A DNA stretch of 64,000 bases. It comes from Pyrenophora tritici-repentis (Eukaryota; Ascomycota; Dothideomycetes; Pleosporales; Pleosporaceae). The notes below the pieces were generated by a model. It was given only the letters and a program-made list of their open reading frames with translations. It had not been told where the DNA came from and did no database searches. How positions within the stretch are numbered: the first letter of the stretch is position 1; each line of letters begins with the position of its first letter. Both the position numbers and the translations under genes were made by a program. Positions 3,844-55,138 of this stretch are shown here, piece by piece. The stretch spans positions 4,526,001 to 4,590,000 of the forward strand of contig NC_089390.1 in assembly GCF_003171515.1 (NCBI RefSeq). Direction: 5' to 3'.

Positions 3844-3941
3844 GGCACTTTGGCGGAGTGGTTAACGCGCTGGCCTGCTAGTCCCTTTGGGAAAGTTAGC
3901 CAGTTCCTTCGGGAGCGTGTGTTCGAATCACACAGGTGTCG
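3844..3941 (+). tRNA. tRNA-Ser(GCT) with a 17-nt intron
   Basis: The sequence folds as a class II tRNA. The acceptor arm pairs GGCACTT with AGGTGTC, the anticodon stem CTGGC pairs with GCCAG, and the T-arm is GTGTG-TTCGAAT-CACAC. The long variable arm (TCC-TTCG-GGA) is characteristic of serine tRNAs. The anticodon loop CTGCTAA gives anticodon GCT. A 17-nt intron at 3881-3897 lies at the canonical site after position 37, where the tRNA endonuclease cuts. A T7 tract at 3952-3958 is a fitting Pol III terminator. Confidence 0.92.
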
Positions 3942-3951
3942 CAAGAAACCA

Positions 3952-54971: not shown

Positions 54972-55111
54972 GGCCTAATGGCCCAATGGCAAGGCGCTTG
55001 ACTACGATTACCGTCGAAATCAAGAGATTCCAGGTTGTAAGTTTCACCACTTGATGAATCGGTCCTTCGAATCAGTTTACTAACATTGTATAGCGACCCC
55101 TGGTTAGGTCA
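54972..55111 (+). tRNA. tRNA-Arg(ACG) with two introns, one in the T-loop
   Basis: Acceptor GGCCTAA (54972-54978) pairs with TTAGGTC (55104-55110), discriminator A55111. The D-arm is GCCC-AATGGCAA-GGC, and the A box TGGCCCAATGG is intact. Anticodon stem CTTGA pairs with TCAAG around loop CTACGAA, giving anticodon ACG. An 11-nt intron (55008-55018) is at the canonical place after position 37. The T-stem CCAGG (55030-55034) pairs with CCTGG (55099-55103), but the T-loop TT-CGACC is split after its second T by 57 bases (55037-55093). Without both introns the tRNA is 72 nt, with every stem paired apart from one G-U in the acceptor stem. Standard tRNA searches would probably miss it or call it truncated. 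Confidence 0.82.
55037..55093 (+). other. GT-AG spliceosomal-type intron inside a tRNA T-loop
   Basis: The insertion starts GTAAGT, has a perfect branch motif TACTAAC at 55078-55084 and ends TATAG, with the branch A ten bases from the 3' end. Its 57-bp length matches the mRNA introns in this window. It splits the B box GGTT|CGACCCC. Within it, CCTTCGAATCAG (about 55064-55075) resembles a B-box core. All of this is read directly; whether it is spliced, and by which machinery, is unknown. Confidence 0.8.
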
Positions 55112-55119
55112 ATAAGTTA

Positions 55120-55138
55120 TTTTTTTGCTCTTTTTTTT
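55120..55138 (+). terminator. Pol III T-tract terminators of tRNA-Arg
   Basis: A T7 run begins nine bases after the tRNA 3' end and a T8 run follows four bases later. Retained terminators support the view that the whole split gene is still a Pol III unit. Confidence 0.75.

Follow-up and report, generated by a model that had tools for sequence, protein, structure and literature searches.

Introns of tRNA genes lie mostly between positions 37 and 38 (PMC4090602), and a 2026 review treats tRNA splicing as independent of the spliceosome (PMC13149111). In Cyanidioschyzon merolae, pre-tRNA-Ile has an intron in the T-arm (53/54) as well as one at 37/38, introns of the D- and T-arms are thought to be removed before the anticodon intron, Pus4 is inactive while the T-arm intron is present, and the mechanism behind these non-canonical introns is described as little known (PMC9602550). 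The U6 snRNA gene of Schizosaccharomyces is a Pol III gene with an mRNA-type intron, for which an origin by reverse splicing has been mentioned (PMC10484740), and fungal U3 snoRNA genes also have introns (PMC5832005). The primary concern of this study is a tRNA-Arg(ACG) gene of Pyrenophora tritici-repentis, located in a stretch of 64,000 nucleotides (the window) and split by two introns, one of them in the T-loop. Pyrenophora belongs to the Pleosporaceae (Pleosporales, Dothideomycetes); among 120 listed matches (of 4036) to a protein encoded near the gene, those with a species name are led by proteins of P. seminiperda (86% identity) and P. teres (85%), and unnamed proteins reach 93%. Spliceosomal (mRNA-type) introns are also present in the nuclear rDNA of ascomycetes, and the intron of Schizosaccharomyces U6 is said, going by the title of a 1990 report by Frendewey, to contain a match to the B box.

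The first intron of the gene is at the canonical 37/38 site, whereas the second is elsewhere, in the T-loop, and has GT-AG borders and branch signals. Like the pre-tRNA-Ile of C. merolae, the gene combines an intron in the T-arm with one at 37/38, but the C. merolae site is 53/54 and spliceosomal signals are not among the features described in the available portion of that report (PMC9602550). The Schizosaccharomyces U6 gene is similar in that a Pol III transcript has a spliceosomal intron with, by the title mentioned, a B-box match inside it; however, U6 is at the core of the spliceosome, which fits an origin by reverse splicing, while the host here is a tRNA with an additional endonuclease intron, and the best-scoring U6 of this genome is intronless. 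Fungal U3 likewise has a spliceosomal intron in a small structured RNA, but is not a tRNA; the rDNA introns are of messenger type in a structural RNA not made by Pol II, but the transcript is made by Pol I and is an rRNA. No report of a spliceosomal intron in a tRNA gene was found in the open-licence literature. The intron type is known, and the tRNA host and the double dependence on splicing are new as far as that literature shows. Very probably this is a working nuclear gene for tRNA-Arg(ACG), equivalent to the three other copies found, with the T-loop intron removed by the spliceosome, the 37/38 intron removed by the tRNA endonuclease, and a B box within the T-loop intron.

Structure of the gene

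The features are listed in Table 1. The preliminary description had proposed a tRNA-Arg(ACG) gene with an 11-nt intron of the endonuclease type and a 57-bp insertion between T55 and C56, and the exon and intron layout read from the sequence agrees with both, as does the presence of the Pol III terminators that it had placed 3' of the gene. A pattern of GTAAGT, TACTAAC, and YAG occurs once in the window and in none of 100 dinucleotide shuffles.

Table 1. Features of the twice-split gene (positions in the window) and of the retrotransposon family with a matching primer-binding site (locus numbers)
Feature	Position	Strand	Remarks
tRNA-Arg(ACG) gene, twice split	54972..55111	+	order: exon 36 nt, intron 11 nt, exon 18 nt, insert 57 nt, exon 18 nt
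5' exon, tRNA positions 1-37: acceptor 5' strand, D-arm, anticodon stem 5' strand, anticodon	54972..55007	+	same in all four genomic copies found
A box, Pol III internal promoter, TGGCCCAATGG	54979..54989	+	from sequence; consensus from general knowledge
Anticodon ACG	55004..55006	+	ARAGORN on spliced product
Ordinary 37/38 tRNA intron, 11 nt	55008..55018	+	10-12 nt and diverged across the four copies; G third-last in 4/4
Middle exon, positions 38-55: anticodon stem 3' strand, variable loop, T-stem 5' strand, T54 T55	55019..55036	+	
T-loop intron, spliceosomal type, 57 nt	55037..55093	+	
5' splice site GTAAGT	55037..55042	+	4/4 copies
B-box-like CCTTCGAATCA within T-loop intron	55064..55074	+	TTCGA core 55066-55070
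Branch site TACTAAC, branch A = 55083	55078..55084	+	CTAAC in 4/4 copies
3' splice site AG, first AG past branch site	55092..55093	+	4/4 copies, read from sequences
3' exon, positions 56-73: C56 G57 A58, T-stem 3' strand, acceptor 3' strand, A73	55094..55111	+	identical in four copies
Pol III terminator, T7	55120..55126	+	from sequence
Second T-run terminator, T8	55131-55138	+	from sequence
LTR retrotransposon family, presumably Ty3-type	L119 (site at 804, element orientation), L113-L117	L119 complementary strand	18-nt site matches 3' end of mature tRNA-Arg(ACG)

With both introns removed, ARAGORN reads a tRNA-Arg(acg) of 72 nt, which provides the cloverleaf expected of a nuclear tRNA. Neither the genomic sequence nor the sequence lacking only the 37/38 intron yields a tRNA with this program; from the sequence lacking only the T-loop insert it predicts a tRNA, but with the anticodon intron misplaced and the identity given as Cys(aca). 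It had also been claimed that removal of the insert restores the T-arm together with a fully paired acceptor stem; the acceptor stem contains one G-U pair (G2-U71). The minimum-energy fold of the spliced 72-mer (ViennaRNA) keeps the acceptor and D stems in an incomplete cloverleaf, as is often the case for tRNA sequences that lack modifications; the unspliced sequence gives no better fold than its shuffled versions (z -0.44). With the bacterial code, ARAGORN detects no tRNA anywhere in the window, and Rfam at the gathering score misses the split gene, its only match in the window being another tRNA at 3844-3941. The latter (about 3844-3942) is an ordinary tRNA-Ser(GCT) with a 17-nt intron in the anticodon loop.

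Copies in the genome and the search for an uninterrupted gene

The 5' half of tRNA-Arg(ACG) has four matches in the genome (40.9 Mb, 41 contigs), two on contig C1 and one each on C4 and C5, and none in the controls. All four loci found have an insert at the same site, T55/C56 (controls 0). The exons are identical at 72 of 72 positions, so that the stems are intact in the sister copies as well and a single 72-nt spliced product is predicted, and runs of at least four T are present downstream of every copy. Hardly any similarity is found in the flanks beyond the tRNA region; the four loci are therefore not recent segmental copies.

A check for an uninterrupted nuclear tRNA-Arg(ACG) elsewhere, suggested in the preliminary description, returned none by BLAST or by two patterns. 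BLAST with the spliced tRNA (the query having one extra A in the anticodon loop) at E values up to 10 found the four loci and nothing else in the genome. A pattern with an ACG anticodon loop at one end and an intact B box at the other matches at no place in the genome (controls 4); a wider anticodon-to-B-box pattern matches at 8 places (controls 15), and ARAGORN calls no tRNA at any of them. The loci run through ARAGORN, which included 28 stretches from matches to the Rfam tRNA family (RF00005), contain a single ACG tRNA, on the mitochondrial-looking contig C41. These results apply to one assembly and to searches that score the best candidates; in the RF00005 profile search of the genome these were the best 63 of 1172. 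The B-box pattern GGTTCGANYCC is present at 221 places in the genome compared with 425 in the control, and ARAGORN calls a tRNA in 12 of 30 such places that were fetched, six of the 12 being SINE-like repeats.

It could be argued that an insertion inactivated the gene before its copies spread, so that none of the four loci works, and that the function rests with an intact tRNA-Arg(ACG) that is absent from the assembly or was missed. The scoring of best candidates only, including the 63 of 1172 for RF00005, leaves some room for a missed gene. However, the exons of the four dispersed loci are all identical although both introns have diverged, the splice signals are retained in 4/4, neither BLAST nor the two patterns found an intact copy, and a retroelement with identical LTRs has a primer-binding site for tRNA-Arg(ACG) (see below), so this explanation is considered very improbable. 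Of the 404 arginine codons in nine long mechanical open reading frames of the window, 203 are CGC or CGT. In eukaryotes, CGU and CGC are read by a tRNA-Arg with inosine at position 34, derived from ACG, and the mature tRNA-Arg(ACG) would decode these codons (and CGA). Unless the genome has another ACG gene, the spliced product must be functional. The tRNA-Arg(ACG) is probably essential.

Two further searches for T-loop insertions yielded candidates that were rejected. A relaxed pattern for other tRNAs split in the same way matches the four genes and four more places (controls 7 in all), and ARAGORN finds no tRNA in the 300-base middle of the four extra loci. Matches to the T55/C56 pattern in 2 viral and 23 prokaryote contigs were taken as chance, with 0 of 25 in a tRNA context as judged by eye.

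Signals in the two introns

The T-loop inserts of the four copies are 55, 57, 55, and 56 nt long. Each starts with GTAAGT, has a CTAAC ending 9-11 nt before the intron end, and stops at the first AG thereafter. The splice signals had initially been described from the window copy as GTAAGT and a perfect TACTAAC branch site; the former is present in all four copies, but TACTAAC is limited to the window copy, the other three having CACTAAC or GACTAAC. The inserts are diverged between the splice signals, and the four intron bodies show no likeness beyond them. The consensus of the U2-type 5' splice site is GTRNGT, and a 5' splice site, branch-site distance, and 3' AG of the U2 type are found in 4/4 inserts. 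In the shorter introns at 37/38, which are 10-12 nt long and diverged, the G third from the 3' end in 4/4 is the base that pairs with C32 under the A-I pair rule.

Removal of the T-loop insert by the tRNA endonuclease, with the spliceosomal likeness incidental, has a parallel in the C. merolae pre-tRNA-Ile described above with introns at both 53/54 and 37/38, and removal by the tRNA endonuclease has reportedly been proposed for the non-canonical tRNA introns of that species. It is nevertheless a poor candidate here, to which little probability is given: GTAAGT, CTAAC, and the first AG after it are kept in 4/4 inserts, and in a consensus fold of the four loci no helix joins the insert borders and 0 of 22 predicted pairs covary, which is a weak test with four sequences, two of them lacking the first 16 nt.

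Another alternative is that the insert belongs to an overlapping gene transcribed by Pol II, with the tRNA as a bystander. A scan for protein-gene introns by the joining of open reading frames does include the window insert among its 31 candidates, but the scan is noisy (23 control bins), and it covered the other three loci, whose inserts are not among the candidates. The flanks of the four loci are hardly alike outside the tRNA region, while the insert borders match the exact T-loop in 4/4; an overlapping gene is thus extremely unlikely, and an intron of the tRNA gene itself is the preferred reading. An earlier strict scan for protein-gene introns gave six best candidates of 51-84 nt. TTTT is present in 7 of 28 unique candidates of the noisy scan compared with 0 of 4 tRNA introns, a difference to which no evidential weight is given. 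A recently spread introner-like element was also considered and rejected, as a genome search with a 63-base query from the window intron, which sees close copies only and did not return the sister introns, gave no further match.

A B-box-like sequence within the intron

The consensus of the B box is GGTTCGANTCC, with the core TTCGA. In the exons the A box is intact, but the insertion divides the B box into GGTT and CGACC; the intron of all four copies contains a weaker B-box-like site. TTCGA is the sole 5-mer common to the four intron interiors, with its first base at position 28-31 of the intron. Among 20,000 joint shuffles, 1 had TTCGA in all four and 38 had any common 5-mer; the four introns may share ancestry, however, so the shared motifs are not independent.

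The intronic sites were scored with a matrix of 11 B boxes of this genome, from tRNAs of the RF00005 search; tRNA-Met (GGATCGAAACC, a misfit to the motif) and boxes known from the GGTTCGANYCC pattern only were left out. The intronic sites score 6.4-9.8 bits compared with 11.1-16.5 for the matrix boxes and, being below all 11 of these, are weak. Single-intron shuffle probabilities are 0.007-0.046, and the complementary strand of the introns reaches 6.6 bits. A further candidate, GTTCAACCC, which scores 8.8 bits, is located close to the intron start in one copy (L011). The B boxes downstream of three U6-like loci score 9.8-13.0 bits on the same matrix. That the B-box core is retained although the four introns have diverged suggests a reason why an intron of this kind could reach fixation.

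Four U6-like matches (L046-L049) were found in the genome, with the best 47 of 2354 candidates scored. The top match, L046, has no intron. A B box of the GTTCGA type, judged by eye, is located downstream of the terminator and outside the RNA in L046, L047, and L049, the last of which is below the family cut-off, while L048, close to L046, resembles a U6 fragment with the 5' part replaced. The B box of SNR6 in budding yeast is reportedly also downstream of the terminator.

A retrotransposon primer-binding site

The reverse complement of the CCA-ended 3' end of the tRNA (13-mer) occurs at 11 places in the genome, two of them on C41, and once in the controls. In five of six fetched loci the complementarity extends over 18 nt, positions 76 to 59, and ends next to A58; in one it is 16 nt. 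The 18-nt site corresponds to the last 15 nt of the 3' exon plus CCA, and the best other catalogued tRNA matches it at 12 of 18 positions. In the regions that were compared, the five loci are nearly identical members of a single family and for this reason count as one event. A complete element has two identical 212-bp LTRs, with the primer-binding site starting 4 nt past the first. Of its three open frames searched, the first matched no Pfam family and the other two match reverse transcriptase, then RNase H and integrase, an order which is taken here to be Ty3-type.

A young retroelement thus seems to prime on CCA-ended tRNA-Arg(ACG), which suggests that this tRNA is matured. Because the site is wholly within the 3' exon, it speaks for 3' processing and not for the splice junction. 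An 18-nt site that stops at position 58 is the expected remnant of reverse transcription up to m1A58; this modification needs a folded T-arm, and the primer-binding site may therefore reflect a folded T-arm as well.

Proposed pathway and implications

In the proposed pathway, Pol III would transcribe the gene with TFIIIC on the A box and the intronic B-box-like sequence, the latter replacing the split exonic B box in TFIIIC recruitment. Of the two introns, the one in the T-loop would probably be removed first, by the spliceosome, since a folded T-arm is needed by RNase Z and by the enzymes that modify the T-loop. End processing and T-loop modifications would follow, and the tRNA endonuclease and ligase would take out the 37/38 intron last. 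This order fits that of intron removal in C. merolae and the behavior of Pus4 there, as given in the available portion of the report (PMC9602550).

It is likely that cytosolic decoding of CGU and CGC is wholly spliceosome-dependent in this lineage: every tRNA-Arg(ACG) gene would have a fixed U2-type T-loop intron that also bears the Pol III B box, so that intron and core are hard to lose, and each molecule would pass through two unrelated splicing machines. If splicing takes place in the way the sequence indicates, tRNAs would be added to U6 and U3 as substrates of the spliceosome, two splicing systems would act one after the other on an apparently essential tRNA, and the translation of common arginine codons would be coupled to the activity of the spliceosome. 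The gene finders used (ARAGORN and Rfam RF00005) miss the gene, and tRNAs reported missing in fungi may be hidden likewise. The origin of introns in Pol III genes is testable by comparing relatives.

Other repeats

A tRNA-like repeat of about 84-86 nt (GGGGGGATGGCGCAGTGGTAGTGCGCC...) is present at L052, L065, L093, and L095 and also at L057, L067, and L078. Four copies that were compared are identical and have the same downstream sequence; the repeat is probably a tRNA-derived SINE, and a second type related to it has a longer middle. Repeats ending in GGTTCGATTCC occur in pairs 5,500 bases apart (L053/L054, L060/L061, and L074/L075) and probably represent the LTRs of a different retroelement, in which a B-box-like sequence is located close to the LTR end. 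Several tRNA matches on C41 (183,218 bases) form mirror-image pairs, a pattern that would be expected if parts of the mitochondrial genome were present in the assembly as inverted copies.
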